From positions 372,001 through 436,000 of the forward strand of contig NZ_JAEVLS010000002.1 in NCBI RefSeq assembly GCF_016801985.1: a stretch of DNA of 64,000 nt, read 5' to 3'. The notes under the pieces are model-generated. The model was given only the letters and a program-made list of their open reading frames with translations. It was not told the DNA's origin and made no database searches. The DNA is from Steroidobacter gossypii. GTDB lineage: Bacteria; Pseudomonadota; Gammaproteobacteria; Steroidobacterales; Steroidobacteraceae. Of the stretch, positions 20,274-51,034 are shown one piece after another (the stretch's first letter is position 1; the number at the start of each line of letters is the position of its first letter). The position numbers were made by a program, and so were the translations under genes.

Positions 20274-20348
20274 GTTCTCAATGATCCCTGGCAGCTGTTG
20301 TATCGACTTCCCGTGGAGCCCCGGATCGACAAAAAGGTGTCGAGGGGG

Positions 20349-20378
20349 AGGGGGGAAGTCGTCTTCTCTTCGCTCTAT
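20349..20378 (+). promoter_or_regulatory. Candidate ECF-type promoter before the first sigma/FecR pair
   Basis: AGGGGGGAAG (20349-20358), 12 bases, then CGCTCTAT (20371-20378), 40 bases before the sigma gene. The second box and the spacing equal those of the three elements found in the sulfatase locus (CGCTCTAC), while the first box is only half conserved. It may be the autoregulated promoter of this sigma factor. Confidence 0.4.
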
Positions 20379-20402
20379 TCTGTCAGAGACACATTACAGA
20401 AT
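20377..20402. promoter_or_regulatory. Inverted repeat ATTCTGT-N12-ACAGAAT
   Basis: A perfect 7-bp dyad with a 12-base gap overlapping the candidate -10 box and ending 15 bases before the sigma-factor ATG. Its place between divergent genes suggests an operator, but a hairpin in the leader RNA is equally possible. It does not look like a Fur box. Confidence 0.35.
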
Positions 20403-20417
20403 GCTCCTGCTGCGTGT

Positions 20418-20909
20418 ATGTCCAACACCCATCTTCTTCTAGAGTGGCGGCGGCGGTGGGACCGCAGCCTGTTCCAGTTCCTGAAACGGCGCGTGCGCTC
20501 ATCGGTCGATGTGCAAGACCTGGCGCAGGAGACGTACTTGCGTTTGTTGCGTTCTCGCGATCTGAGCGACGTTCGCAAGCCGCTCGCCTATCTGTTGCAG
20601 GTGGCCAGCCACGTTGCACTGGAATGGGGCAATCGGCAGGCGAGGAACGCAGCTTTGGGCGTTGTCGAAGCGAAGGATCTCATCGATGAGCAGTTACCGG
20701 AGCTGGAGCTCGATGCCGGGCTGACTCAGCAACGCATCGAGCAAACGCTGGCGGCGTGCTCTCCCACGATGCGAGCGGTGCTGTTGCTGCGGTTGAGGGA
20801 CCAGCGCTCCTGCCAGGAGATCGCGAATGACCTCGGCATCAGCATGAGAACGGTGCAGCGACACCTGGAGAACGGCTACGCGCGCCTGCGCATGGCCATC
20901 GAGGGTTGA
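20418..20909 (+). CDS. FecI-like ECF RNA polymerase sigma factor
   Basis: 163 residues from ATG 20418 (MSNTHLLLEW); the same start position relative to domain 2 is seen in the paralogue at 44604. Region 2 contains VDVQDLAQETYLRLL, and region 4 contains QEIANDLGISMRTVQRHLENGYARLR, the promoter-recognition helix-turn-helix. Regions 1 and 3 are absent, as in extracytoplasmic-function sigma factors. Two bases separate it from the fecR-like gene, and the STN receptor is transcribed divergently, giving the classic receptor-FecR-FecI surface-signalling set. It should direct transcription of the receptor gene once FecR is signalled. Confidence 0.92.
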   Translation: MSNTHLLLEWRRRWDRSLFQFLKRRVRSSVDVQDLAQETYLRLLRSRDLSDVRKPLAYLLQVASHVALEWGNRQARNAALGVVEAKDLIDEQLPELELDAGLTQQRIEQTLAACSPTMRAVLLLRLRDQRSCQEIANDLGISMRTVQRHLENGYARLRMAIEG

Positions 20910-20910
20910 G

Positions 20911-21951
20911 ATGACGGAAGTGAACGAAGAGATGTTGACGGTCCCGGAGCAAGCGGCACGGTGGTGGCGTGTCATGCAGGATGACGAGCCCTCCGCGGGC
21001 GAGAAGCGGGCATTCGCCGCTTGGGTAGCGGAGTCGCCAAAGCACATCGAGGAGATGCTGCGCCTCGCTCAAATACACAGGGCCTTCTCGAGAGGGCAGG
21101 TGCGTTGGCCCGAGGACGCCGCGGAGGCGCTGATTCGCGCCGCAAAGACGGCCGGCGAGGACACCGTCGTGCCGCTATGGCCGCCTCGATCGTCGCGACC
21201 AGAACCGACTCGCCGGCCGGTTCGCGTCGCCGCTTTCGGCTTGGCCGCCACTGTTTTACTGGCTGTCTGCGTGAGCTGGTTCGCGCTGTCCCGCGCCGAG
21301 AGCTTCGAAACGAAGATCGGTGAGCAGCGCTCGGTGATGCTCGATGATGGATCGCGAATCACCCTCAACACCGCGTCACGGATCGAAGTTCGCCTGCGCC
21401 CGGATCGGCGCGTCATCGATCTCGTGAGAGGTGAGGCGCTCTTCGAGGTCGCACACGATGCGCAACGTCCGTTCGACGTGCGCATCGACGACACCGTTGC
21501 GCGTGCAGTCGGCACCCAGTTCGAAGTGGACCGCCGAGACAACCGCACGGTCGTGACAGTGGTGGAGGGACGCGTCGCTGTTACTTCCGCCGCGGCCGCA
21601 GCGCCTCACCTCTTGTCTGCGGGTGAGCGCATCACCGTCGACAGCACGGGACTGGGTGCTGTCGAGAAGGGCATAAAGCTAGACGACGCCACGGCCTGGA
21701 CGCGGCGGCAACTCGTCTTCAGGCGTCGTCCGTTGGGTGAGATCGCGGAGGAGTTCAATCGCTACAACGCTGCGCAAGTCCATATTCAAAGCGACACGTT
21801 GCGCAAGCAGGAGGTGTCAGGAATTTTTCGCACCGACGATGTGAGCTCGTTCGTCGCGCTGCTCGCGAGCAAGCCGGGCGTACGCGTCGTCGGCGATGGA
21901 TCCGGCGGATACGTCGTGACTTCGGACGACTCCGCATCACCGCACAGATAA
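20911..21951 (+). CDS. FecR-type anti-sigma factor
   Basis: 346 residues. N-terminal cytoplasmic DUF4880-like domain (PEQAARWWRVMQDDEPS, AFAAWVAESPKHIEEMLRL) binds the sigma factor. One membrane segment (VAAFGLAATVLLAVCVSWFAL, about residues 105-125) precedes the periplasmic FecR domain (IGEQRSVMLDDGSRITLNT, RGEALFEVAHD, AVGTQFEV). A C-terminal DUF4974-like part contacts the receptor STN domain (RRPLGEIAEEFNRYN, VSGIFRTDDVSSFVALLA). It holds or activates the adjacent sigma factor depending on receptor occupancy. It starts two bases after the sigma stop, so translation is probably coupled. Confidence 0.92.
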   Translation: MTEVNEEMLTVPEQAARWWRVMQDDEPSAGEKRAFAAWVAESPKHIEEMLRLAQIHRAFSRGQVRWPEDAAEALIRAAKTAGEDTVVPLWPPRSSRPEPTRRPVRVAAFGLAATVLLAVCVSWFALSRAESFETKIGEQRSVMLDDGSRITLNTASRIEVRLRPDRRVIDLVRGEALFEVAHDAQRPFDVRIDDTVARAVGTQFEVDRRDNRTVVTVVEGRVAVTSAAAAAPHLLSAGERITVDSTGLGAVEKGIKLDDATAWTRRQLVFRRRPLGEIAEEFNRYNAAQVHIQSDTLRKQEVSGIFRTDDVSSFVALLASKPGVRVVGDGSGGYVVTSDDSASPHR

Positions 21952-36754: not shown

Positions 36755-38974
36755 TCAGTCCTTCCAGCGTCGTGCTTTCATGTTTGCAACCACCGGCGGC
36801 CCCAGCGCTTCGGCGTGCTCACCGAGCGCGAACTCATATGCGCCAGCCGGCATCTGCCAGGAGCCATCGCGCCAGTCGGCGAGCAGGCGACGGTCGATGG
36901 TGAGCGACACCTTGCGAGATTCGCCGGCCGCGAGTTCGACGCGCTCATAGCCGACCAGCCGTCGCTTGGTCGCGCCAAGCCGCGAGACCAGATACAGCTG
37001 AGCGACCGTCGCGCCGAGGCGGTCGCCGGTATTTTTCACCTCGAAGCTGGCGGTCGCGCCGTCGGTCTTCAGGCCTGAAGTAACAAAGCTCGTATAGGAC
37101 AGTCCATACCCGAACGGGAACAGCGCCTGATGGCCGTGGCGCGCATTCCAACGATATCCGACGTCGGAACCTTCGATGTCATAGTCGGCGGTGAGGCGGG
37201 CATCCGCGCTGGGCGCGCTGCCGGAAAAATCGGGATCGAGGGTGTCGAAGCCGTCGATCTTGGTTCGTGGCAGATCGTTCTCGCTGGCGGGGAAAGTGAT
37301 GGGCAGTCGTCCCGACGGATTGACATCGCCAAACAATACAGCCGCGATCGCTTCGCCACCGCGCGCACCCGGGTACCAGGCCTGCACGACTGCGGCAGTA
37401 TGATCGAGCCACGGCATGAGAATCGGGCCCCCGGTTTCCAGTACGACGACGGTGTTTGGATTGGCTTCCGCTACGGCGCTGATCAGCGCGTCCTGGCCAT
37501 ATGGCAGGCTCAGGTCCGGTTGATCGAAGCCCTCGGCCGACCACTGCGTCGCGAAGACGATAGCAACGTCGGCCTGCCTGGCCCGAGTCACTGCTTCGCT
37601 GACGTAACGTCCATCGCGGAAACGCACATCTGCTTTCTTGGCCGCCGCTTTGATCGCATCCAGCGGGACCGAGCGGTGGTATGCCTGAGTGAGAAACGGT
37701 GCGTATGGGCCGTGGCCGCCGAGCGGGATCGACACTGCAGGACCGCCTTCGCCTTGCACTTGGCTGGAGCCTGCTCCAGATAGCACGCCCGTATCGGCAT
37801 AACCACCGATCACAGCGATGCGCTTGATGCTGCGAGAAAGAGGTAACGTGTTGCGCTCGTTGCGAAGTAACACGATGCCTTGCCTGGCCACGTTCTCGGC
37901 CACGGCGGCGTTGGCCTGCAGATCGACGGTGCCGCCGGGCGTTGCCGGATGCGTATCCAGTCCATTCGCGTAGATCGCAGTGAGTATGCGTTTGTTCATA
38001 TCGTCGACGCGCGCGGCGTATGCCGGATCCTTCTTCATGGCGTCGGCGAGCGGCTCGTCAAAAAACACTTGCGGATCGAGCTGTGCTCCGGACTGCTGGT
38101 CCAGGCCGTTCAGTGCAGCCTCGAGGTTTGCGACCGCGCCCCAATCGGACATCACGAAGCCTCGATAGCCCCAGTCTTGCTTGAGTACTTTGTTGAGCAG
38201 CCAGTCGCTGCCGCACGCTGGCTGTCCGTGAACGCGGTTGTAAGCGCACATCACGGATCCCGGCTGACCGATCTCGATGGCGATCTGAAACGCAAGCAAG
38301 TCGCTCTCGCGCGCCGCGCTCTCGCTGATCTTCACGTCCACGAACTTGCGGCCGGTCTCTTGTCCGTTCAGGGCAAAATGTTTGATCGTGGAGATGATAT
38401 CGTTCGACTGAACGCCGGCGATCGACGCGCCTGCCAAGGTGCCCGCCAGCCACGGGTCTTCGCCGAAATACTCGAAGTTGCGGCCATTGCGCGGATCTCG
38501 CATGAGATTGACTCCGCCGGCGAGCAGCACGTTGAAGCCTTTGGCGCGCGCCTCCGAACCGATCATGCGGCCGCCTTCACGCAGCAGTTCGGGATTCCAG
38601 GTCGACGCCATCGCCAATCCGGATGGCAAGGCAGTCGCGCCGTCCTTGCGCAAGCCGAACACATAGGCAACGCCGAGGCTGGCATCCGACTCTTTCAGCG
38701 CTGGCACACCGAGTCGCTCGATGCCGGCCACATAACCGGCTCCAGGGATGGCATCGGCCGGAATCGGTGGCGGATTGGGGCCGACAGGCAGGGGCATGAT
38801 GCCGTGAGTGAGCACGGTTTTTTCTTCAGCGGTCATTTGCTTGACCGTGGCGGCGGCGCGTTTCTCCGCGCGCGTCCAGCGAGCTTCGGTGGAGTTGGCA
38901 TCGGAGGCATAGATCGAGGGCGCGGTCGATGCGCCGAGCGTGGCGATCAGCAACGGAAACGCTTTGAGTTGCAT
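36755..38974 (-). CDS. Glycoside hydrolase family 3 beta-glycosidase, secreted
   Basis: 739 residues from the ATG at 38974, with AGGGGC upstream and a signal peptide (QLKAFPLLIATLGASTAPSIYA). An open frame runs much further upstream but crosses the divergent sulfatase gene and is not real. GH3 features: KHFALNGQE (~199-207), the nucleophile Asp277 in GFVMSDWGAV, the C-terminal sandwich domain (GIVLLRNERNTLPL) and a fibronectin-like end (SFEVKNTGDRLGATVAQLYL). It removes terminal beta-linked sugars from oligosaccharides in the periplasm. A strong copy of the locus-wide promoter-like element lies upstream (39047-39076), linking it to the sulfatase regulon. Confidence 0.93.
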   Translation of the reverse strand: MQLKAFPLLIATLGASTAPSIYASDANSTEARWTRAEKRAAATVKQMTAEEKTVLTHGIMPLPVGPNPPPIPADAIPGAGYVAGIERLGVPALKESDASLGVAYVFGLRKDGATALPSGLAMASTWNPELLREGGRMIGSEARAKGFNVLLAGGVNLMRDPRNGRNFEYFGEDPWLAGTLAGASIAGVQSNDIISTIKHFALNGQETGRKFVDVKISESAARESDLLAFQIAIEIGQPGSVMCAYNRVHGQPACGSDWLLNKVLKQDWGYRGFVMSDWGAVANLEAALNGLDQQSGAQLDPQVFFDEPLADAMKKDPAYAARVDDMNKRILTAIYANGLDTHPATPGGTVDLQANAAVAENVARQGIVLLRNERNTLPLSRSIKRIAVIGGYADTGVLSGAGSSQVQGEGGPAVSIPLGGHGPYAPFLTQAYHRSVPLDAIKAAAKKADVRFRDGRYVSEAVTRARQADVAIVFATQWSAEGFDQPDLSLPYGQDALISAVAEANPNTVVVLETGGPILMPWLDHTAAVVQAWYPGARGGEAIAAVLFGDVNPSGRLPITFPASENDLPRTKIDGFDTLDPDFSGSAPSADARLTADYDIEGSDVGYRWNARHGHQALFPFGYGLSYTSFVTSGLKTDGATASFEVKNTGDRLGATVAQLYLVSRLGATKRRLVGYERVELAAGESRKVSLTIDRRLLADWRDGSWQMPAGAYEFALGEHAEALGPPVVANMKARRWKD

Positions 38975-39016
38975 GAATGTCTGCCCCTGAGCTGACTCGA
39001 GCGGAATAGTTGTTGG

Positions 39017-39039
39017 GGCCCTGCGGAAACAGCAGGGCC
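39017..39039 (-). promoter_or_regulatory. Hairpin in the GH3 leader
   Basis: GGCCCTGC and GCAGGGCC form a perfect 8-bp stem around a 7-base loop, starting 8 bases downstream of the candidate -10 box of the GH3 promoter. It would sit at the very 5' end of the mRNA, a position that can stabilise transcripts. Confidence 0.35.
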
Positions 39040-39046
39040 AAATCGG

Positions 39047-39076
39047 GAAGAGCGCCGGCGCGCGACTTTGGGCCCC
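39047..39076 (-). promoter_or_regulatory. ECF-type promoter element P3 (for the GH3 gene)
   Basis: Read leftward: GGGGCCCAAA (39076-39067), 12 bases, CGCTCTTC (39054-39047), then 72 bases to the GH3 ATG. The first box is identical and the second box 7 of 8 identical to the elements before the sigma-factor gene and the TonB receptor gene, with the same spacing. Confidence 0.7.
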
Positions 39077-39142
39077 CACCTTGACTTCCATTGCCGATGG
39101 AACGAATTTGCCGCCGACAAAACCATGTTTCTCGGGGGATGA

Positions 39143-40906
39143 ATGCGTAGCACTGTGGTGTCGCTGGCTTTGTTGTTCATTGCCCAGCTGTGCTCGGCGG
39201 CCGCGCCCGCTCGGGACGATCAGCGTCCGAACATCGTCGTCATCCTGCTCGATGACGTGGGTTATTCGGACATCGGTTCGTTCGGGTCCGAGATCCGCAC
39301 TCCAGCGATCGACTCCATCGCGGCCGGCGGGCTGCGTTACAACCGATTCGATACCAAGGCCGTATGCTCGCCGACGCGGGCGGCGCTGATGACGGGGCGC
39401 AATCCGCAGACGGTGCGCATGGCGGATCTGCCCGCGACCAAACTCGACCCGAACGATTTCACTCGCGATCGCGGCGAGTTGCCGCAGAACGCGCAGACCA
39501 TTGCGCAAGTGCTACAACGGGCCGGTTACGCGACGCATGGCTATGGCAAGTGGCATCTCGCGCCCGAAAGCGAAGATGGGTCGCCGGGCAACAACGCTTC
39601 GTGGCCCCTGCAACGCGGCTTCGACCAGTTCTATGGTTTCTTCCTGGGCTGGACCGATCAATATCGCCCCAATCTCATCGAAGGCAATCGCCGCATTCCG
39701 ACGCCGGACACCGCCGGCTATCACTTTTCGACCGATATCACCGATCATGCGATTGCGGCGCTGACGCCCAAGCCGGGCCGGCCGCGGCAGCCGACGTTCG
39801 TATATCTGGCGTATGGCGCCGCCCATGCTCCGATCCAAGCGCCGAAGCAATACGCCGACGCGTACGCAGGCGTTTATGAAAAGGGTTGGGACGCGCTGCG
39901 CGAGGAACGGCTCGCGCGCATGAAACAGATGGGCATCGTGCCGGCGAATACCGTTCTGCCGCCGCGCAATCCGGGCGATCGCGCCTGGAGCGCTCTCTCC
40001 GACGTGGAGAAGAAAGTCTTCGCTCGCTTCATGGCCGTCTATGCGGGATTCCTCACGCACACCGACGAGCAGATCGGCCGGCTGGTCGCGCATCTGAAGG
40101 CGACCGGGCAATATGACAATACGCTGATCGTGTTCTTCTCGGATAACGGTGCGGCGTCGGAAGCGGGCCAGAAAGGTTCTTTCGAACGGCTGTATCGACC
40201 CAACACACTGACGCCCGAGCAGATGCTCGCGCGTCTCGATGAGCTGGGCACGGTCAAGACCCAGTCGGAATATCAGCGGCCCTGGGCCATGGCGGGTGTC
40301 ACACCGTTTCGCCGCTATAAGCTCTGGCCGCATCTGGGCGGCGTGCGCACGCCGCTGATCGTGTCATGGCCGAAGGTCATTCGCGATGGCGGGGCGATTC
40401 GCAATCAGTATGTCGATGTCGTCGATATCGCACCGACGCTCGCCGAGGCGGCCGATACGAGTTTTCCCACCTCGCTCGATGGCCGCGCAGAGATTCCGGT
40501 CGCCGGGAAATCGATTCAGGCCAGCTTCACGTCCGCCAACGCGCCGAGTGCACGCACCGTGCAATATTTCGAGCTGCGCGGCAATCGTGCGATCACTTCG
40601 GGTCATTGGCGCGCGTTGGCTGTTCACAAGCAGCTCACAGATTTTGCGACCGACAAGTGGGAGCTGTACAACACGGAGACCGATTTCTCGGAGAGCACCG
40701 ATCTTGCCGCACGCTATCCTGAGAAACTGGAAGAGCTCAAGCAGCTGTGGTGGAGCGAGGCGCGCAAGTACAGTACGCCGCCCCTGGCCGAAGCGCCGGA
40801 AAGATTTCGAGTTCGCGAGCGCTTCGACGATAGTCCGGATCGCGCCCCCATACCGCCGCACCTTATTCCGCCTCCGGAACCCACGGCACAGCAGGAAGTG
40901 CGTTGA
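39143..40906 (+). CDS. Type I (formylglycine) sulfatase, secreted
   Basis: 587 residues with a signal peptide (RSTVVSLALLFIAQLCSAAA). Sulfatase motif CSPTRAALMTG gives Cys75 as the residue converted to formylglycine. LLDDVGYSD (Asp37/Asp38) supplies calcium ligands; YGKWHLAPE and FFSDNGAASEAG complete the active site. It hydrolyses sulfate esters in the periplasm or outside the cell. It resembles arylsulfatase A-like family S1 enzymes, where subfamily decides the sugar and position; I cannot assign one. First of three sulfatase genes; the next ATG overlaps its stop. It is divergent from the GH3 gene. Confidence 0.93.
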   Translation: MRSTVVSLALLFIAQLCSAAAPARDDQRPNIVVILLDDVGYSDIGSFGSEIRTPAIDSIAAGGLRYNRFDTKAVCSPTRAALMTGRNPQTVRMADLPATKLDPNDFTRDRGELPQNAQTIAQVLQRAGYATHGYGKWHLAPESEDGSPGNNASWPLQRGFDQFYGFFLGWTDQYRPNLIEGNRRIPTPDTAGYHFSTDITDHAIAALTPKPGRPRQPTFVYLAYGAAHAPIQAPKQYADAYAGVYEKGWDALREERLARMKQMGIVPANTVLPPRNPGDRAWSALSDVEKKVFARFMAVYAGFLTHTDEQIGRLVAHLKATGQYDNTLIVFFSDNGAASEAGQKGSFERLYRPNTLTPEQMLARLDELGTVKTQSEYQRPWAMAGVTPFRRYKLWPHLGGVRTPLIVSWPKVIRDGGAIRNQYVDVVDIAPTLAEAADTSFPTSLDGRAEIPVAGKSIQASFTSANAPSARTVQYFELRGNRAITSGHWRALAVHKQLTDFATDKWELYNTETDFSESTDLAARYPEKLEELKQLWWSEARKYSTPPLAEAPERFRVRERFDDSPDRAPIPPHLIPPPEPTAQQEVR

Positions 40907-42815
40907 TGTCAGGATCGCGCCGAGAGTTTCTGAAGGCGGGCGCCCTGGCGACAGCGGCGCTTGCCTCGAATGTTCCGCTCGCTCGAGCGCGCGACAACGC
41001 GCGACCGAATTTCCTCTGGCTGGTCAGCGAGGACAACAACCCCTTCATTCACGCGTACGGCGATCGGCTCGCCCACACGCCGAACATCGATGCGCTCGCA
41101 AGCAGGGGCTTGCTGTATCGGAATGTTTATTCGAATGCGCCGGTGTGCGCCCCATCGCGTTTCACCATTCTTACCGGCATGTACTCGCAGACATGCGCGC
41201 CCGCCAATCACATGCGCGCAGTAGCCAAGTTGCCCGCGATGCTGCGTACATATCCTGAGTTGCTGCGTTCGGCGGGCTACTACTGCACCAACAACGCCAA
41301 GACCGACTACAACTGCGATGCCGATCCCGCAAAGCTCTGGGACGCGAGCAGTCGCGAGGCTCATTGGAAGAACCGTCCCGACGGCCGGCCGTTCATGGCA
41401 GTGTTCAATTTCGAGACCACGCACGAGTCGCAGCTGTTCAAGCCCACGCCGGGCCGAATCAAACCGGAGGATGTGCGCATTCCAGCGTATCTGCCGGACA
41501 CACCGGGCATGCGGGAGAATCACGCCAGCTACTACAACCTGATGGAGAAGATGGACGCGCAAGTCGGCGAGAAGCTCGCCGAGCTCTCGGCCGCCGGGCT
41601 TGCGGAGGACACCATCGTCTTCTACTACTCTGACAACGGCGGTGTGCTGCCGAGGTCCAAGCGATATTGCTACGAGGAGGGGCTGCGTTGTGCACTGGTG
41701 GTACATCTTCCAGCCAAGTGGGCGCACCTCGCGCCAGCCGCGCCGGGAGCCACCTTGGATGCGCCAGTGACCTTCGTCGATCTCGCGCCGACCTTGCTTT
41801 CCCTGGCCGGGCTGGCGATTCCAGCCACCATGCAGGGCAAGGCGTTCCTCGGGCCTGCGGCCGCCAAGCCTCAGCCATATGCCTTCGGCATGCGCAATCG
41901 TATGGACGAGCGCTATGACTTCGTGCGTACCGTAACCGACGGTCGCTATCGCTACATCCGCAACTACATGCCATTCCTGCCGGCCGTGCAGAATCAGGCG
42001 TTCGCGTGGCTGGCGCGGGGCTATCAGGATTGGGACGAGCTGCAACGCGCGGGCAAGCTGACACCTGCTCAGCGCAGAGCGTTCGAGCAGCGCCCGTACG
42101 AAGAGTTCTACGATCTGCACGCGGATCCCGACCAGATCGACAATCGAATCGCCGATGTCGCACACGCCATTCGTATCAAGGCGATGCGCAGCGCGCTCGA
42201 TGCGCACATGATCAAGATCAACGACAATGGCTTTATCCCCGAAGGCTCGAGCCTTGAAGGCTACGAGCCAAGTCGCGGCAAGGGCGCGTATCCGTTACAG
42301 CGTGTGATGCGGGTGGCGCAGGCGGGGGCACGTCGCGATCCTCGCAAACTTGCGACACTGCGCAAGGCGCTCGACGATCGCGACGAAGTCGTGCGGTACT
42401 GGGCCGCGATGGGACTATTGATGCTGGGGGCGAGCGCGGCGCCCGCGACTGCTGCACTCCAGGCGGCAATGCGCTCCGATCCATCCAAGCAAGTGCGTAT
42501 CGTTGCGGCGGAAGCGTGTGCCATGCTCGGTGACAAGGAGGAGAGCCTCGCAGCACTCACTTCGCTGCTCGAAGCGGCAGAAGGCATGCCGGTGCGACTT
42601 CAGGCGGTGAACGCCCTTACCAGGATCGGGCCGGCCTCGCGCGCCGCCTTGCCTGCCCTGCGCAAGATGACCGAGGGCGACGACAGAAATGAATATCTCA
42701 ACAACGCCGCGACGTATCTGATTCAGACGCTCGAAGGCAGTTACGATCCGCACCGACCGATTTTCGATCTGGAGCGGTTGCTACGAGGCACGCGCGCGGC
42801 GCCGGGCCGGGCTTG
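40906..42815 (+). CDS. Sulfatase with Tat signal and C-terminal HEAT-like repeats
   Basis: About 636 residues from the ATG at 40906, which overlaps the previous stop (TGATG) behind AGGAAG. The N-terminus SRREFLKAGALATAALA is a twin-arginine signal. CAPSRFTILTG provides the formylglycine Cys81; SEDNNP replaces the usual first metal-binding Asp pair with Glu-Asp. Residues ~470-600 form alpha-helical repeats (LRKALDDRDEVVRYWAAMGL, DPSKQVRIVAAEACAMLGD, MPVRLQAVNALTRIG) like HEAT/PBS-lyase repeats, which could bind a long substrate or a partner. This fusion type is known in S1 sulfatases acting like N-sulfoglucosamine sulfohydrolase; the exact substrate is unknown. Operon member. Confidence 0.92.
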
Positions 42816-42827
42816 AGGATTATCGTG

Positions 42828-44540
42828 ATGAGCAGATCGATGAAGGCAACCTTGTTTGGCGCGCTGTTCGGCGTGATCGCCACCTTGAGTTTCAGTGCGC
42901 ATTCTGCGCAGCCCGCGCCGAAAACGGGCGATGGTCAACAAACGCGGCCCAGCAATGTCATTTTCATACTGGTCGACGATCTTCGCTACGACGGCATGGG
43001 GTTCTTGCAGCCGGGCCTGAAGACTCCGAACATCGACCAACTGGCGCGCGGTGGCAGTTACTTCCCGAACACTGTCGTGACGTCTTCATTGTGCTCGCCA
43101 AGTCGCGCCACCATCCTCACCGGTCAGACGGCGCGCAATCACACGATCGTGGATAACAACGACGCCTCGGAAGAGGGGCTCATCTACTTTCCGAGCTATT
43201 TGCAGAAGGCGGGCTATCAGACCGCGTTCCTGGGCAAGTGGCACATGGGACAGAGCTCGGACGCACCGCGCCCCGGGTTCGACAAGTGGGTGAGTTTCAA
43301 AGGCCAAGGCTCCTATTATCCGACGACGGGCCTGTCGCCCGAAGCGGTCAAGGCCGGGCGCACCCACACGCTCAATGTCGACGGGCGGGAAGTCGCGCAA
43401 CAGGGCTACATCACCGATGAGCTCACCGACTATGCGCTGCAATGGCTGGATAAAGAGCGGAACAAGGGTAAACCCTTCTTCTTATATCTAAGCCACAAGG
43501 CCGTGCATTCCGATCCTCTGCCGGCGCCTCGCCATGCGCATCAGTACGACGACTTCGAGTTCAAGATCCCGGCAAGCGCCGCCAACACGCCGGAGAACTA
43601 CGCCGGCAAGCCGATGTGGGTCTACAACCAGCGCAACACCTGGCACGGCATCGACTTCTTCTACAACTCCGACATGAAGATGACGGAGTACCTGCGTTAC
43701 TACTATTCGACGCTCTCGGCGGTCGATGACAGCGTCGGTCGCCTGCTCGCATGGCTGAAGAAAAATCGCCTCGAGCGGGACACGCTCGTGGTGTTCACCG
43801 CCGACAACGGCTTTCTGATCGGCGAGCACGGCCTCATCGACAAGCGCAATGCCTATCAGCCCTCGGTGCGTGTGCCGATGGTCATGTATCGACCCGGCAC
43901 CGTCCCGGCTGGGGTCACCAATGAAGGACGCATCCGCAATCTCGATTTCGCGCCGACGTTCCTCGATATCGCCGGTGTGCCAAGCCCGCCGCAGTTCGAA
44001 GGGCGTAGCGCTTGGCCGTTGATCAAGGGCAGCGTGCCGGCGGCGCAATGGCAGCCGCAGGATTTCGTGTACGAGTATTATTGGGAATGGACGTTCCCCA
44101 TGACCCCCGGCACCTTCGCGATCCAGCGGGGCAACATGAAGTACATCCAGTACTACGGCATCTACGATACCGACGAGCTGTACGATGTGGTGAAGGATCC
44201 CGACGAGATGCACAACCTGATCAACGATCCGGCGTATCTGGACGCCAAGATCGAGCTCAGGAAGGCGCTGTTCGAGCAACTGGCCGATCGCAACGGCCGT
44301 CACACCATCCCTTACACGCAGCGCCTGTCGATCGGCAGTGTCCGCCGCCATCGCGAGGGAACCGGCGCCGCGCCTTACCCGGAGGCCTGGCTGGTGGAGC
44401 CCAATCGGCTCGATCGGCTCGATGACATCCTGCCGGACAGCCGTGCCAAGCAGTCGGCGCATGACCAGGGCAAGCCATTCATGCCGCTGCCGGTCGTCGG
44501 GCGGGGCACGAACGCGGTGGAAACCCCACCGAGACGCTGA
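42828..44540 (+). CDS. Type I (formylglycine) sulfatase, secreted
   Basis: 570 residues from ATG 42828, chosen because GAGGA lies 7 bases upstream and a signal peptide follows (MKATLFGALFGVIATLSFSAHSA). The sulfatase motif CSPSRATILTG (Cys89) is intact, with LVDDLRYDGM for metal binding, GKWHMGQ and FTADNGFLIGEHG. The latter and the text around YEYYWEWTFP resemble family S1 enzymes acting on heparan- or glucuronan-type sulfates, but this is only a similarity by eye. It is the third sulfatase gene and the last before the sigma-factor gene; a promoter element lies between. Confidence 0.92.
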   Translation: MSRSMKATLFGALFGVIATLSFSAHSAQPAPKTGDGQQTRPSNVIFILVDDLRYDGMGFLQPGLKTPNIDQLARGGSYFPNTVVTSSLCSPSRATILTGQTARNHTIVDNNDASEEGLIYFPSYLQKAGYQTAFLGKWHMGQSSDAPRPGFDKWVSFKGQGSYYPTTGLSPEAVKAGRTHTLNVDGREVAQQGYITDELTDYALQWLDKERNKGKPFFLYLSHKAVHSDPLPAPRHAHQYDDFEFKIPASAANTPENYAGKPMWVYNQRNTWHGIDFFYNSDMKMTEYLRYYYSTLSAVDDSVGRLLAWLKKNRLERDTLVVFTADNGFLIGEHGLIDKRNAYQPSVRVPMVMYRPGTVPAGVTNEGRIRNLDFAPTFLDIAGVPSPPQFEGRSAWPLIKGSVPAAQWQPQDFVYEYYWEWTFPMTPGTFAIQRGNMKYIQYYGIYDTDELYDVVKDPDEMHNLINDPAYLDAKIELRKALFEQLADRNGRHTIPYTQRLSIGSVRRHREGTGAAPYPEAWLVEPNRLDRLDDILPDSRAKQSAHDQGKPFMPLPVVGRGTNAVETPPRR

Positions 44541-44553
44541 CAAGGCCGTCGCC

Positions 44554-44583
44554 GGGGCCCAAAATTCGCGATTCCCGCTCTAC
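44554..44583 (+). promoter_or_regulatory. ECF-type promoter element P1 (for the sigma/FecR genes)
   Basis: GGGGCCCAAA (44554-44563), 12 bases, CGCTCTAC (44576-44583), 20 bases before the sigma-factor ATG, with the ribosome site AAGGGCGG between. The short leader and the identical elements elsewhere in the locus support autoregulation. Confidence 0.7.
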
Positions 44584-44603
44584 AGTAGGCAAGGGCGGAC
44601 ACC

Positions 44604-45101
44604 ATGGGCAATGGCACCTTATTAATGAGTTGGCGCGCGCGCTGGAATCGCAACCTGTTGCGGTTCCTGGGCAGTCGCGCCCGCCGCCAGGACATCGAGG
44701 ATCTGGCCCAGGAAACCTACCTGCGGCTATTGCGGGCCCGAGACCTGGATGACGTACACAATCCCGAGGCCTACCTCATCAGCGTCGCGAGTCATGTGAT
44801 CTCGGAATGGAAGCAACGGCAGCAGCCCTTCGACAGCGCGAGCTTCGACGAAACGAGCCTCGCCGCCGAACGGATGGATCTGGAAGCGGAGGCGGATGCG
44901 CGCATGTCGCAGCGTCGTATCGACGAGGCGCTCGCCAGCGTTGCCCCCATGATGCATGCCGTATTGTTACTGCGCCTTCGCGACGACCGCAGTTGTAAAG
45001 ATATCGCTCGGGATCTCGGCCTCACCGAGCGTCAGGTGAAGCGGCAGCTGGCGCACGGTTATGAGATTCTCCGGCGGGCGTTGCAGGACGTATCGTCATG
45101 A
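44604..45101 (+). CDS. FecI-like ECF RNA polymerase sigma factor
   Basis: 165 residues. Region 2: QDIEDLAQETYLRLLRARDLDD; region 4: KDIARDLGLTERQVKRQLAHGYEILR. It is a close relative of the sigma factor at 20418 (same WRxRWxRxLxxFL opening and matching helices). It overlaps the fecR-like gene by four bases and sits between the sulfatases and a signalling STN receptor, so it should transcribe genes for the sulfated-substrate system. The repeated promoter-like element in this locus is its probable target sequence. Confidence 0.93.
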   Translation: MGNGTLLMSWRARWNRNLLRFLGSRARRQDIEDLAQETYLRLLRARDLDDVHNPEAYLISVASHVISEWKQRQQPFDSASFDETSLAAERMDLEAEADARMSQRRIDEALASVAPMMHAVLLLRLRDDRSCKDIARDLGLTERQVKRQLAHGYEILRRALQDVSS

Positions 45102-46207
45102 AGCGCCTGAATTCTCCTGATGCGATCGAATCGGCCACCGTGCCGGAGCAGGCCGCGCATTGGTGGATCGTGCTGCATGAAGAGTCGTGCACGCGAGAGG
45201 ATCGCGAAGCATTCGCCGCCTGGGTGCGCCGCTCGCCGGAGCGGGTCGAAGCCTATCTGCGCGTGACCATGATGATGGGCACGCTGCAATCGAAACATCG
45301 CAAGTGGCCGGACACACCGCCCGACGAGCTGATCCGCGCGGCGCGCGCGTCTTCGGCAGAGATCATTCCCCTGGGGCGCTCCCAGCCGATGGCACGCGCG
45401 CCTGGTCCGTCTGCGTCTGTGGGTGCCCGCAGGTTCACGTATGCCAGCGTGGCGGCGATCTGCTGTGTCCTCGTAGTAGCCTGGCTCCTGTGGACACCGC
45501 AGCGTTTTCAGACCGAGATCGGTGAGCAGCGCTCGGTACTGTTGGGCGACGGCTCCTTGATTACGCTGAATACCGCGTCGGAGATCGAAGTGAAGTTGAC
45601 CGATGGCCGCCGCTTGATTCGGCTGGTGCGAGGCGAGGCGCTGTTCGAGGTGGCGCACGATTCGCAGCGGCCCTTCGATGTCGATACCGGCAAGGCGGTG
45701 GTGCGCGCGGTCGGCACGCGATTCAACATCGACCGGCGCGCCGATCGCACGACGGTGTCGGTCGTGCAAGGCAAGGTGCAGGTCATGACCGAGCAACCGG
45801 GCAAGCCGCAACCGTCAGGTCACGAGGCGGTCGCGGTCGATGCGCCAGCAACGGAGTTCCTGGTCGAAGCACAGCGGCTGGTGGTTACGGAGGCCGGCAT
45901 GAGCGAACCCGAGCACATTGCGGACATTGCGCCGGTGACTGCGTGGACTCAACGTCAACTGGTGTTCGAGAATCGCAGCCTGGCCGAGGTGGCCGAAGAG
46001 TTCAATCGTTACAATCGCCAGCACATCCTGATCGAGTCGCCGCGCCTGCGTACGCAATCGGTCACCGGCGTGTTTCAAGCGAACGATTCGGCGTCGTTCC
46101 TCGCATTCATTGCCAACATTCCGGGAGTGCGGGTCACGACCAGCGCGGCGGGACATCACGTAGTGTCGCTGCCGGAGGGCGGGGAGGGGCCCAAAGTTTT
46201 ACGATAG
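45098..46207 (+). CDS. FecR-type anti-sigma factor
   Basis: 369 residues. N-terminal cytoplasmic anti-sigma part (PEQAAHWWIVLHEESCTREDREAFAAW split by a loop), membrane segment (RFTYASVAAICCVLVVAWLLW, ~108-128), FecR domain (IGEQRSVLLGDGSLITLNT, RGEALFEVAHDSQRPFDV, AVGTRFNIDRR) and the C-terminal receptor-contact domain (NRSLAEVAEEFNRYNRQH, VTGVFQANDSASFLAFIA). Compared with the protein at 20911 it has an extra ~20-residue loop near residue 240. It relays the state of the STN receptor encoded next to the sigma factor. Its last codons overlap the promoter element P2. Confidence 0.93.
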   Translation: MKRLNSPDAIESATVPEQAAHWWIVLHEESCTREDREAFAAWVRRSPERVEAYLRVTMMMGTLQSKHRKWPDTPPDELIRAARASSAEIIPLGRSQPMARAPGPSASVGARRFTYASVAAICCVLVVAWLLWTPQRFQTEIGEQRSVLLGDGSLITLNTASEIEVKLTDGRRLIRLVRGEALFEVAHDSQRPFDVDTGKAVVRAVGTRFNIDRRADRTTVSVVQGKVQVMTEQPGKPQPSGHEAVAVDAPATEFLVEAQRLVVTEAGMSEPEHIADIAPVTAWTQRQLVFENRSLAEVAEEFNRYNRQHILIESPRLRTQSVTGVFQANDSASFLAFIANIPGVRVTTSAAGHHVVSLPEGGEGPKVLR

Positions 46208-46215
46208 CGCTCTAC
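46186..46215 (+). promoter_or_regulatory. ECF-type promoter element P2 (for the STN receptor)
   Basis: GGGGCCCAAA (46186-46195), 12 bases, CGCTCTAC (46208-46215), about 80 bases before the receptor ATG. Both boxes are identical to those of P1. The element overlaps the end of the fecR-like gene, so the base identity is not explained by the protein sequence. Confidence 0.7.
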
Positions 46216-46296
46216 GGGTTGGAGAGCGCAATCGTCGGGTTCACCGGACGCGACAGGCGACCATGAAGAACGATCGATAACAGACGGTAGGGGGAT

Positions 46297-49065
46297 ATGC
46301 CGCGACAGACCAGTTTCACGGTCGGTGCGGTGGCTTGCGTAGCTGCCTGGCTGCAGCCCGTGGGCACGGCCGCAGCGAGCGATGCCATCAGTCGCGAGCA
46401 CGACCTGCAGATCGAGCGCCAGCCGCTGGCGCGAGCGCTGCAGGCATTCGCCAAACAATCTGGCATTCAGATCATTTTCTTTTCGGATGTCGCCGATGGC
46501 CGTGAGGCTTCGCCTCTGGTCGGCCGGTTCACGATCGCCGCAGCGCTCGAGCAGATGCTCCTCGATTCGCAGCTCACGTTCCGCCAGATCAACGCCAACA
46601 CCATCGAGATCTGTCTGCGGAGCTCGCCGCTGTGCTCGGGAGCCCAACCCAATCCGGAGACAGAAATGAAACAACATTCGAGCGTGTACCTGGCGGGGAA
46701 CGGTCGCAAGCTACGGCGCATGAGAACGCTCTCCAGCGCGCTCATGTCCGCGGCGGCGATGACGGCGGCGGCGCAAGACAAACCGGCCTTGGAAGAAGTC
46801 GTGGTCACCGCGCAGAAACGCGAAGAGCGTCTCCAGGACGTGCCGGTGGCGGTCACGGCATTGTCTGGCGCGCAACTGGCGAGCGCGGGCATCAACGATA
46901 CCGCGAGCCTCACCAACATGACGCCCTCGCTGACATTCACCGAAGGCGCGCATCCGGCCAACAAGAATTTTCGTATTCGCGGCATCGGCACGGCCGTGTT
47001 CGGCCAGGGTCTGGAGCCTTCGGTCTCGGTGGTCGTCGATGGCATCGTGCTCGCGCGCGCCGCGCAGGGCTTTTCCGATCTCGCCGACATCGAGCGCGTC
47101 GAGGTGCTGCGCGGACCGCAGGGCACGTTGTTCGGCAAGAATTCGATCGGCGGCGTGGTCAACGTTGTCACGAAACGGCCGTCCACGACCTTCGAAGCAG
47201 ATATGGATGTCACGGTGGCCGAGGGAGATGAATATCGCGTGCGCGGCTCCGTGTCCGGTCCCCTCAGCGATACGGTGGGCGCACGACTCACCGGCTATTA
47301 CAACGATGTTGCCGGTCACATCCGCAACATCACGGTGGATCGCGACGTGAACGGCCACGAGGACCTGGGCTTTCGCGGCAAGCTCGAGTGGGATCCGACC
47401 GACCGGCTCAACATGCTGTTCATGGCGGACTATCGCGAGAACGATACTACCTGCTGCTCCAGCCAGATCATTTCCGTGGAGAACCCGCTGCTCGCGCAGT
47501 TGATGCTGCCGGTCGTGGCGAGTTTCAACAACCGGCTCGAGACCGACAATCGCATTGCCACCTCGAGCACCGAGCAAACCACGCTGTCCATCGAAGCCAA
47601 CTACGAGCTCGACGCGGTCACGCTGACTTCGTTGAGCGCGTATCAGGACTTCTTCGTCGAGAACGATCAGCCGGTGGACCGCCTCGATACGCCGACGCCG
47701 TTGTATCTGCCCGTGACCAATGGTTGGTTCGACATCAACGACGGCAGCATCGACATTCAGCAGTTCACGCAGGAGTTCCGCGTCACTTCGCCGGGTCAGC
47801 AGCGTTTCAACTACGTCGCGGGCCTTTATTTCCTGGACCTGGACCTGGACCGCAGGTTCGAGCGTCGCGTCGGCAGTTGCGCGCCGGGCGGCGAGCCGGC
47901 AGCGTTCGGCCTGCCATGCAATGTGCCTTTGTATCGTTCTCAGGCCGGCTTCCTCGCGAACACGACCACTCGCAACGTCGCGCTGTTCGGTCAGACGGAT
48001 TTCGCCATTGTGGGCAACCTGTCCGGCCTCGCCGGAGCGCGGCTGCAGTACGAAGAGATCACTTACGACGGCCGCCGTACCGCGGAGCGTGTCGTTCCGG
48101 GCGATCTGCCGCTGCCGGGATTCACGCCCTCTTCGGGCACAGGCAAGTCCGACGACACGGTGGTCACCGGCAAGCTCGGCTTGAAATATGAGTTCAGCGA
48201 CGCTGCGCAGGGCTATCTGACCTGGTCCACCGGCTACAAGGGCGCCGGCTACGAAGTGGAGTTCGCAACCATTTTCGAGAACCAGGAGCCCATCAACCCC
48301 GAAGAAGCCGAATCGTGGGAGCTGGGCTTCAAATCCCAGCTGTTCGATGGCCTGCTGTCGCTCAATACAGCGCTGTTCTATGCGCAGTACGAGGATCTGC
48401 AGGTGCAGGCCAATCGCGGCAACCCGGACTTAGGGATCGTGAGATTCGCGACCACCAATGCGGGCAGCTCGACGACGCAGGGTGTGGAGATGGAGTTTGC
48501 GTTCCGTCCCCTCGGTGGATTGTCCTTGAGCGGCGGCGTGACGTATCTCGACAGCAGTGTCGACATCGATGGATTGAACTGTCCGCTGTCCGAGCAGGCG
48601 GCGGCGCCGGTCATCACCGGCTCGCGGCCGATCAATCTGTGTTATCGCCCGGCAGTGGGGGCGAATCCGGTGCAGAACGTGCGCGGTGGCCAATTGCCGA
48701 ACTCGCCGGAGTGGCGCGGCAATCTGACGGCGCGCTATGACTTCGATGTGCCGGGCACCAGCTGGACCAGCTTCGTGCAGCTCGCGGGCAATGCCCAGTC
48801 GAAGATGAACTTCGTCATCGAACAGGACCCGCTCACGGTGCATGACAGCTACACGATCGTCGACGCCAGCATCGGTCTGCGCGACCCGAGCGAGCGCTAT
48901 CGCGTTACGTTCTTCGTCAAGAATCTTTTCGACGAGCATTACGTGACGTTGATGGGGCGCATGGCCACGCTCTCCACGGCACTGGTCACGCCCAACAACT
49001 TGCAGGCGACGATTCCCAAGGAAGCGAACCGCTACTTCGGCGCGACCTTCGGTGTGTCGTTCTGA
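46297..49065 (+). CDS. TonB-dependent receptor with STN signalling domain
   Basis: 922 residues. Signal peptide (RQTSFTVGAVACVAAWLQPVG), STN domain about residues 34-108 (LQIERQPLARALQAFAKQSG, LVGRFTIAAALEQML, INANTIEICLRS), then a second signal-peptide-like stretch (residues ~124-160: MKQHSSVYLAGNGRK, then LSSALMSAAAMTAAAQ), the plug (LEEVVVTAQKREERLQDVP, VERVEVLRGPQGTLFGKNSIGG) and a barrel ending in GVSF. The STN domain signals to the FecR protein. Given its neighbours it should import a sulfated or desulfated glycan fragment. An internal ATG at 46666 with a GGAGA ribosome site could give a receptor without the STN domain. Confidence 0.93.
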   Translation: MPRQTSFTVGAVACVAAWLQPVGTAAASDAISREHDLQIERQPLARALQAFAKQSGIQIIFFSDVADGREASPLVGRFTIAAALEQMLLDSQLTFRQINANTIEICLRSSPLCSGAQPNPETEMKQHSSVYLAGNGRKLRRMRTLSSALMSAAAMTAAAQDKPALEEVVVTAQKREERLQDVPVAVTALSGAQLASAGINDTASLTNMTPSLTFTEGAHPANKNFRIRGIGTAVFGQGLEPSVSVVVDGIVLARAAQGFSDLADIERVEVLRGPQGTLFGKNSIGGVVNVVTKRPSTTFEADMDVTVAEGDEYRVRGSVSGPLSDTVGARLTGYYNDVAGHIRNITVDRDVNGHEDLGFRGKLEWDPTDRLNMLFMADYRENDTTCCSSQIISVENPLLAQLMLPVVASFNNRLETDNRIATSSTEQTTLSIEANYELDAVTLTSLSAYQDFFVENDQPVDRLDTPTPLYLPVTNGWFDINDGSIDIQQFTQEFRVTSPGQQRFNYVAGLYFLDLDLDRRFERRVGSCAPGGEPAAFGLPCNVPLYRSQAGFLANTTTRNVALFGQTDFAIVGNLSGLAGARLQYEEITYDGRRTAERVVPGDLPLPGFTPSSGTGKSDDTVVTGKLGLKYEFSDAAQGYLTWSTGYKGAGYEVEFATIFENQEPINPEEAESWELGFKSQLFDGLLSLNTALFYAQYEDLQVQANRGNPDLGIVRFATTNAGSSTTQGVEMEFAFRPLGGLSLSGGVTYLDSSVDIDGLNCPLSEQAAAPVITGSRPINLCYRPAVGANPVQNVRGGQLPNSPEWRGNLTARYDFDVPGTSWTSFVQLAGNAQSKMNFVIEQDPLTVHDSYTIVDASIGLRDPSERYRVTFFVKNLFDEHYVTLMGRMATLSTALVTPNNLQATIPKEANRYFGATFGVSF

Positions 49066-49088
49066 TGTGACCTTTTGAAGTCGGTGAG

Positions 49089-50033
49089 ATGAATACCGGC
49101 GCACGCAGTCATGGCATGCGCCGGCTTCCCGGTGGCGATTTCATCATGGGCTCGGATCGGTTCTACCCCGAGGAGCGTCCATGCCGACGCGTGCGTGTCG
49201 ATGGTTTCTGGATCGACGAGACGCCGGTGACCAATCGGCAGTTCGCAGCGTTCGTAGCGGCCACCGGCTATCGCACCTTGGCGGAAATGCCGCCCGATCC
49301 CGCTGATTTTCCAGGCATGCCACCAGAGATGGCACGAGCGGGCTCGCTCGTGTTCGAGCGACCGCAAGGCGCGGTGAATCCCGATGCGTTTCATGGATGG
49401 TGGCAGTTTCGCTTCGGCGCCTGCTGGCAGCAGCCGCTAGGCGAGGGCAGCTCGCTTTCCGGGCTGGAAGATCATCCGGTGGTGCACATCGCCTACGCCG
49501 ATGCCGATGCCTATGCGGCGTGGGCGGGCAAGTCGCTGCCAACTGAAGCCGAATGGGAATACGCCGCGCGCGGCGGACTCGAGACGGAGTTTGCGTGGGG
49601 GGAAGAGTTGGCCCCGGAAGGGCGCATGCTGGCGAACTATTGGCAGGGTGACTTCCCGCACCAAAACCAGCTGCTCGACGGATGGGAGCGCACCTCGCCC
49701 GTGCGTACCTTTCCTCCGAATGCGTTCGGGCTCTACGACATGATCGGCAATGTTTGGGAATGGACTTGCGATTGGTACGCGCTGCCGAGCCTCGATAACA
49801 AACATCACGGCCGCTGCTGCATTCCGTCAAACCCCCGGGGCGGGCTCGAGCAGCACAGCTATGACCCGGACATGCCCCTGGCCCGCATCGGGCGCAAAGT
49901 GTTGAAGGGCGGTTCGCATTTATGCGCACCCAACTACTGTCAGCGGTACCGCCCCGCCGCACGTTACGCGCATGCCATCGATACCTCGACGAGCCACATC
50001 GGATTGCGCTGCGTGGTGCGTGATCGAGTGTGA
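49089..50033 (+). CDS. Formylglycine-generating enzyme-like protein (sulfatase maturation)
   Basis: 314 residues of the SUMF1/FGE fold. RLPGGDFIMGSDRFYPEERP, VDGFWIDETPVTNRQFAAFV, the central LPTEAEWEYAARGG and MIGNVWEWTCDWY are family signatures. Most important, GGSHLCAPNYCQRYR keeps both copper-binding/catalytic Cys (Cys279 and Cys284) with the spacing of genuine FGE, so it should oxidise the Cys in C-x-P-x-R motifs to formylglycine. The three sulfatases upstream all carry that motif. No signal peptide is seen, fitting a cytoplasmic action before Tat or Sec export. It starts 23 bases after the receptor stop, so it probably shares its transcript. Confidence 0.92.
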   Translation: MNTGARSHGMRRLPGGDFIMGSDRFYPEERPCRRVRVDGFWIDETPVTNRQFAAFVAATGYRTLAEMPPDPADFPGMPPEMARAGSLVFERPQGAVNPDAFHGWWQFRFGACWQQPLGEGSSLSGLEDHPVVHIAYADADAYAAWAGKSLPTEAEWEYAARGGLETEFAWGEELAPEGRMLANYWQGDFPHQNQLLDGWERTSPVRTFPPNAFGLYDMIGNVWEWTCDWYALPSLDNKHHGRCCIPSNPRGGLEQHSYDPDMPLARIGRKVLKGGSHLCAPNYCQRYRPAARYAHAIDTSTSHIGLRCVVRDRV

Positions 50034-50089
50034 TTCCCAGCCATTCACGGCCGTGAAGGTTTTCGAAGGATGTGTCGAGTCGGCATCGT

Positions 50090-51034
50090 TCAATCCACAT
50101 CCACCGGCAAGACCGCGCCACGTGTCTGTAGCTGAGTGGCCGTCATGTCGATCTCGCGTATCAATGCTCTTGCTGGTGAGGCCAGGTCATCGCGATCGCG
50201 ACGGCTGATGTGCACGGCGCAGCTACCTAGCGGCTCACGTGTGTTGATCTCCACCAGGTCGCCGGCTGCGAGATCGCGCGCCACGAGGTTGTGGGGGAGG
50301 ACGGCGATGGCGGTGGACTCCCGCAGGAATTCGTTGGCAATGTGATAGTTGCCTTCGATGAAGTTGGTGGGGAAGGGCACCTTTTGTCCGGCGAACAGCG
50401 CGCTGACCGGGTCGCGAAACTCTCGATAAGGATGCGCGATGAACCACGGATAATCGAGCAACTCGCTGCGTCGAGGCGATCTTTTGCTGGTCAGCGGGTG
50501 CCCCTTGCGCACGACGATCACCAGCCGCTCGTTGAAGAGGATGCGATGGTCGAGCTCCGCCATCTGCTCGGAGGTGCCCGCATAGCCGATGACGAAATCC
50601 AGCTCGCCCAGACGCAACGCTGGCAACAAGTTGTCGTTGTGGCTCGGTACGACGGTGACCACGACCCGTGGATGTGTGCGCTTGAAACTTGCGAGCGCGA
50701 GCGGCAGCAGCGGCGAAGCTGTAATCGGCAATACTCCCACGTTGACATGTCCGAACTCGGCGTTGCGCGTGGCCTGAACCCGCGCCAGCCCTACGTTCAA
50801 TTCCGACAGCACCTTGACCGCGTGTTGAATGAAAACGCGCCCGTATGCGGTCAGAGTGACGCCTTGCCGGCTGCGATCGAGCAGCTTGGCGCCAAGCGTG
50901 GCTTCCAGCTTGAGAATGGCGCTGGTTATAGCTGGCTGCGTTACGTCGAGTCGCTGGGCTGCCTTGAGCAGGCTGCCGCTGCGCGAGGCCTCGACGAAAT
51001 ACAGTAATTGCCGGGTTTGAATGCTGGTGTCCAT
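50090..51034 (-). CDS. LysR-family transcriptional regulator of the ring-cleavage operon
   Basis: 314 residues from the ATG at 51034 (MDTSIQTRQLLYF); codons further upstream are not part of the family. Helix-turn-helix in LKAAQRLDVTQPAITSAILK and KLEATLGAKLLDR. The effector domain (FGHVNVGVLPITASPLLPLALASF in two runs, LDFVIGYAG) resembles GbpR/CbbR-like regulators of aromatic and gallate catabolism. It is divergent from the HyuA gene; a 17-bp palindrome with LysR spacing lies 26 bases upstream of its start codon. It most likely activates the operon in response to a pathway intermediate. Confidence 0.92.
   Translation of the reverse strand: MDTSIQTRQLLYFVEASRSGSLLKAAQRLDVTQPAITSAILKLEATLGAKLLDRSRQGVTLTAYGRVFIQHAVKVLSELNVGLARVQATRNAEFGHVNVGVLPITASPLLPLALASFKRTHPRVVVTVVPSHNDNLLPALRLGELDFVIGYAGTSEQMAELDHRILFNERLVIVVRKGHPLTSKRSPRRSELLDYPWFIAHPYREFRDPVSALFAGQKVPFPTNFIEGNYHIANEFLRESTAIAVLPHNLVARDLAAGDLVEINTREPLGSCAVHISRRDRDDLASPARALIREIDMTATQLQTRGAVLPVDVD

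Follow-up and report, generated by a model that had tools for sequence, protein, structure and literature searches.

A three-copy promoter element predicted for a FecI-like sigma factor encoded beside sulfatase genes in Steroidobacter gossypii

Which genes would an extracytoplasmic function (ECF) sigma factor serve when it is encoded directly behind three sulfatase genes and in front of genes for a FecR-type anti-sigma factor and a TonB-dependent receptor? A locus of this kind lies in a 64,000-nucleotide stretch of Steroidobacter gossypii (contig NZ_JAEVLS010000002.1, positions 372,001 to 436,000), hereafter the window, in whose own numbering all coordinates are given. The initial annotation had pointed to a bipartite element in three copies, each facing a gene, as a candidate promoter for the local sigma factor. 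Allowing up to three mismatches, we found that the window indeed matches GGGGCCCAAA-N12-CGCTCTWC at three places and no more, each time perfectly (0.12 expected; none of 100 shuffled sequences reached three). The copies are located at 44554-44583 on the plus strand (GGGGCCCAAA-N12-CGCTCTAC), 20 bases from the ATG of the sigma gene at 44604; at 46186-46215 on the plus strand, 81 bases from the receptor ATG at 46297; and at 39047-39076 on the minus strand, where the second box reads CGCTCTTC, 72 bases from the start (38974) of a GH3 glycoside hydrolase gene. Every copy is oriented toward its gene. We regard it as highly probable, on sequence evidence, that the local FecI-like ECF sigma factor directs RNA polymerase to the three copies and that these serve as its promoters.

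The element is confined to this locus. The assembly of the own genome (7,102,648 bases, 97.63% complete) contains only the three perfect copies, none at one mismatch, one at two mismatches, and six at three. These 10 matches equal the 10 of a reversed-pattern control, so that everything beyond the three copies is at chance level, and a dispersed repeat was rejected since the genome holds no further perfect copy. The annotation had proposed a genome-wide search with the 12-base spacer for hits before receptor, sulfatase, or glycosidase genes; its only perfect hits are the copies before the sigma, receptor, and GH3 genes, and the three sulfatase genes carry no copy. The predicted regulon comprises sigma-fecR, the receptor gene (with a gene for an FGE-type sulfatase-modifying enzyme behind it), and the GH3 gene, in keeping with the small regulon of signaling, import, and glycan hydrolysis first proposed. 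When the pattern was relaxed to a spacer of 12 to 14 bases, it fitted four places each in the own genome and in that of Peristeroidobacter soli JW-3, against control counts of 0 and 3, respectively; three of the four in each genome are the locus copies. As candidates for a wider regulon, an extra relaxed-pattern match and the match at two mismatches were set aside as chance, both lying in long open frames. GGGGSC-N16-CGCTCTAY at one mismatch gave 15 places in the own genome versus 11 for its control.

Perfect copies occur in 2 of the 14 genomes of the genus, those of the window and of P. soli, both of which encode a close sigma factor: among 148 relatives searched, P. soli alone has a 95% identical sigma factor, the next being at 62%. 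In P. soli the whole locus is present with its order unchanged, and the boxes of the sigma and receptor copies are perfect. To follow the element further, we kept 22 of the 75 loci given by a contig scan (L081 to L101 and L135; sigma identity of at least 49% over more than 100 residues), leaving out 53, three of which were short matches at 58 to 59%. In 20 of the 22 relatives, the sigma gene is preceded by a site whose first box begins with GGGG and whose second box resembles CTCTA; these sites match 12 to 18 of the 18 box letters, where control windows have a mean best match of about 10. The best-fitting spacer is 12 bases in 17 of these relatives, 11 or 12 in L096, and 13 in L084 and L098. 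A strict expression was found on the sigma side in 18/22 loci, on the receptor side in 14/22, and nowhere else in the 22 loci.

When the window sigma factor and 21 relatives (L101 left out) were grouped into eight lineages below 80% identity, seven had a sigma-side site, the eighth being L099. For the five such lineages whose spacer is plainly 12 bases long, identity is 76% in the first box (90% over its first six bases) and 78% in the second, against 25% for the spacer and 26% and 28% for the flanks; on the receptor side, three lineages give 87% and 75% for the boxes, 17% for the spacer, and 25% and 23% for the flanks, box identity being raised throughout because the relatives' sites were chosen by their best match to the window boxes. 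Conservation in the relatives is strictest for GGGG[G/C]C, the opening hexamer, and looser for the CAAA part, and the element is therefore better counted as a 6-base -35 box, 16 bases, and a -10 box. In this layout the -35 box GGGGCC and the -10 box CGCTCTAC are separated by a 16-base spacer, and the three copies read GGGGCC-N16-CGCTCTWC; the 12-base spacing reported earlier holds in the copies and is refined by this count. In ECF promoters generally, a gene is preceded by two boxes with about 16 bases between them, a layout that all three copies share. A separate DNA-binding regulator could also bind such an element, and the first box does contain a GGGCCC palindrome and is, with 10 bases identical in the three copies, longer than the usual -35 hexamer. 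This explanation is highly improbable, since the palindrome is not kept in the relatives, which mostly have GGGGGC, and since the two boxes come with a single spacing, always oriented toward the gene, beside one sigma clade despite its differing cargo.

A matrix built from the sites of 19 relatives (17 unique sites; window and P. soli excluded) ranked the window copies first to third in the 64 kb, with scores of 22.5, 22.5, and 17.0; the fourth-ranking site scored 15.5 and the next independent site 12.7. The same matrix found a site scoring at least 14.7 between fecR and the receptor gene in 16 of the 20 loci scanned (all except L099 and L101). In the window this copy overlaps the fecR stop codon (46205-46207), and the annotation had argued that protein conservation does not explain a copy at the end of a coding region. 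This point stands: coding constraint was rejected because the equivalent site in L083 and L085 lies wholly past the fecR stop, and also because conservation of the protein does not extend to the window's fecR tail.

The GH3 copy might be a relic or too weak to work, leaving the sigma and receptor copies as the only working promoters. Two deviations favor this possibility and count against the promoter reading for this copy: both the window and P. soli have a T in place of the second-box A found in all 17 unique training sites, and the P. soli copy, with second box CACTCTTC, has a 13-base spacer, one longer than in the window. We nevertheless consider a nonfunctional copy unlikely, since 17 of its 18 box letters match those of the other copies, its orientation is right within a gap of only 168 bases, its first box GGGGCCCAAA is unchanged in P. 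soli, and the relaxed pattern fits a single place in the genome outside the locus, inside a long open frame. The predicted GH3 leader contains a hairpin at 39017-39039 on the minus strand (eight pairs, GGCCCUGC, a loop of 7, and GCAGGGCC), which is not notable (z-score of -1.5; 12/200 shuffles fold as well).

Another sigma factor might be the main reader of these promoters, and the window itself offers the chief candidate. A second ECF gene (20418-20909, 52% identical) forms a pair with a FecR gene (20911-21951) and is accompanied by a divergent STN receptor gene (17895-20273, minus strand), the whole system spanning 17895-21951. The site before this second sigma gene, AGGGGGGAAG-N12-CGCTCTAT at 20349-20378, is the fourth-ranking site mentioned above and resembles the element; no comparable site was found before its receptor gene (best score, 8.6). 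That the second ECF factor reads the three copies is very unlikely, because the first boxes differ and because P. soli has the elements without a close copy of this factor, its other ECF matches being 35 to 40% identical. Of 20 other ECF loci, this one included, 18 scored below 10, with a control maximum of 15.8; among the 18, L032 offers hardly any DNA before the gene, and L025 coincides with L101. One 42% identical paralogue in the own genome (L036, C32) has GGGGGC, 16 bases, and CCCGTCAT before its ECF gene, the first box being the same and the second different. The own genome holds 30 FecR-domain matches, with a nearby ECF-like match at 26 of the 30 loci, which amounts to many parallel signaling systems, and a distinct promoter code may keep them apart.

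Several results weigh against reading the copies as promoters of the local sigma factor, in addition to the selection effect and the GH3 deviations already described. At one mismatch, the shorter consensus is at or near control level in all ten genomes, and the distant paralogue L037 (41%) scores 20.2, above the control maximum. No sigma-side site was found in L099, whose sigma frame is broken, or in L101, and the matrix gave no clear receptor-side site in L082, L084, L086, and L098; L086 has an off-position match of 17.2 within the receptor gene. The site is equaled by three to twelve control windows in each of L084, L092, L093, L097, and L098, and 13 relatives form one lineage with L085 at 80% or more sigma identity. 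Moreover, E. coli fecIR and hasI are reported not to be autoregulated (PMC9249621), nor is Stenotrophomonas maltophilia hemI, although many ECF sigma genes are (PMC12772443). The proposal of a promoter for the local ECF sigma factor is nonetheless supported by the uniqueness of the element in the genome, by the conservation of the boxes and not of the spacer or flanks, and by its recurrence before the sigma and receptor genes of most relatives, as well as by the restriction of perfect copies to the two genomes with a close sigma factor and the lack of a clear match at most distant paralogues.

The sigma gene might also, or instead, be transcribed from a housekeeping promoter, since a sigma-70-like sequence, CTGACA-N17-CAAAAT (44537-44565), overlaps the sigma copy and has both hexamers kept in P. 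soli. The second hexamer, however, lies within the ECF element, so that its conservation is not independent, and a sigma-70-type scan of 38900-50200 found this one site against a shuffle average of 2.7. Transcription from such a promoter is improbable, and as an addition providing basal expression it would be compatible with recognition of the element by the local ECF sigma factor. The scan found no site before the sulfatase genes. By eye, a weak, unproven match, TTGACT-N17-GAATTT, is seen before sulfatase 1 in the window and in P. soli.

We then analyzed the genes of the locus. The sigma factor (44604-45101, plus strand, 165 residues) matches Pfam Sigma70_r2 (36.8 bits; cutoff, 24) and Sigma70_r4_2 (28.9 bits; cutoff, 25.7) and TIGR02937 above its cutoff; with 35.4 bits against a curated cutoff of 260 for NF041727, it is not the ferric citrate FecI itself. 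The fecR gene (45098-46207, plus strand, 369 residues) overlaps the sigma gene by 4 bases, and its product matches FecR (86 bits; cutoff, 24) and DUF4880 (41.2 bits; cutoff, 25), with FecR_C at 22.2 bits, just below the cutoff of 24.4. Its GT site (residues 206-207) is invariant in 6/6 aligned proteins. The receptor (46297-49065, plus strand, 922 residues) matches the Pfam barrel and plug domains above cutoff; a putative N-terminal STN signaling domain scores 23.1 bits (E value, 6.4e-05), below the Pfam cutoff of 28.4, and a FecA model matches residues 25-103 with 46.2 bits, far below its cutoff. A complete signaling set of sigma factor, FecR, and receptor is present. The FGE-type gene (49089-50033, plus strand; Pfam FGE-sulfatase) begins 23 bases past the receptor stop and is probably cotranscribed with the receptor gene.

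Upstream of the sigma gene, on the same strand, three sulfatase genes follow one another with 4-base overlaps: sulfatase 1 (39143-40906; signature CSPTR), sulfatase 2 (40903-42816; CAPSR, with HEAT repeats), and sulfatase 3 (42813-44540; CSPSR). All three match Pfam Sulfatase domains and carry a C-x-P-x-R signature, which we take to be the mark of formylglycine sulfatases. The GH3 gene (36755-38974, minus strand, 739 residues; Pfam GH3 N and C domains) diverges from sulfatase 1. Comparison with solved structures covered sulfatases 1 and 3 and the GH3 protein: the closest solved relative of the latter is a beta-glucosidase, and the two sulfatases match solved sulfatases of many substrates.

Taken together, these genes suggest how the system would work. 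Binding of a ligand at the TonB-dependent receptor with its putative STN domain would send a signal to the FecR-type anti-sigma factor, which would free the sigma factor, and transcripts would start just past the second box of each copy. Transcription by the freed sigma factor would feed back positively on sigma-fecR and would include the receptor gene, probably the FGE gene behind it, and the divergent GH3 gene. FGE would in turn mature the sulfatases. The ligand is probably a sulfated glycan, because sulfatases, FGE, and GH3 are encoded at the locus.

The cargo behind this signaling set changes among relatives. Among the 22 loci (up to 6 kb covered on each side), P. soli alone has a match to the window's sulfatase and GH3 genes. 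The promoter module therefore seems to predate the cargo that it now serves, and the window's lineage may have added the GH3 promoter. In a Pfam scan of 20 proteins from seven relative loci, the gene past the receptor encodes a gamma-glutamyltranspeptidase in L087, L095, and L096 and a thioredoxin-like protein in L083, and has no Pfam match in L086; the scan covered this gene in these five loci, not in L084, and L082 ends within the receptor. In L087, L095, and L096, where the sigma, FecR, and receptor promoters are the same, a DUF885 gene also lies upstream, on the opposite strand, and this cargo suggests the uptake of peptide rather than glycan. We propose, with moderate confidence, that this FecI-like clade of Steroidobacteraceae and kin has a portable, self-amplifying two-promoter module with a fixed GC-rich code and a changing cargo behind the receptor, from sulfated-glycan genes to gamma-glutamyltranspeptidase, to which a third promoter adds the divergent GH3 gene in the window's lineage.

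ECF promoter prediction has been described as challenging and in need of start-site data for Bacteroides glycan regulation (PMC3878776). For a sigma factor that is linked to a receptor and encoded next to sulfatase genes, the element offers a predicted ECF promoter defined by its sequence, with a small closed regulon, and makes a sigma-promoter pairing testable in a genome rich in FecR domains. It also suggests that a sigma factor and its promoter code can be kept while the genes served change.

How does this locus compare with known systems? In the literature on such systems, as far as it was consulted and with the ECF Hub motif papers outside that coverage, we did not see this motif described. 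The proposed mechanism is cell-surface signaling of an ordinary, known kind. Like E. coli Fec and Pseudomonas aeruginosa Fox, of the FecI-FecR-FecA type, the locus has an ECF sigma factor, a FecR anti-sigma factor with a GT site, which in FoxR is the place of self-cleavage (PMC11637429), and a TonB receptor, here with a putative STN domain, whose gene is predicted to be under the sigma factor here as well, given the copy at 46186 and the equivalent sites in relatives (PMC11637429). The window differs in having sulfatase, FGE, and GH3 neighbors in place of iron genes and in that the sigma factor is predicted to have a promoter before its own gene. The FecI-like groups ECF05 to ECF10 (now ECF243) likewise have a sigma gene adjoining a FecR gene, a likeness that implies no group assignment; their -35 and -10 motifs are described as AT rich (PMC6180224), whereas the window promoter is GC rich. 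Bacteroides glycan loci also couple sigma and anti-sigma factors to an outer-membrane receptor (PMC3878776), and SigW-1 is reported to direct arylsulfatase expression (PMC12596196), but these loci belong to Bacteroidetes and have SusC-like receptors, and the SigW-1 promoter has a TGTT motif near -10. The CUT loci of Xanthomonas share the association of a TonB receptor gene with carbohydrate-degrading genes, the sux locus being controlled by a cytoplasmic repressor and not by an ECF sigma factor (PMC1790865). Within this known kind of signaling, the variant features of the window are its GC-rich promoter, the conserved promoter of the sigma gene, and the added GH3 promoter.

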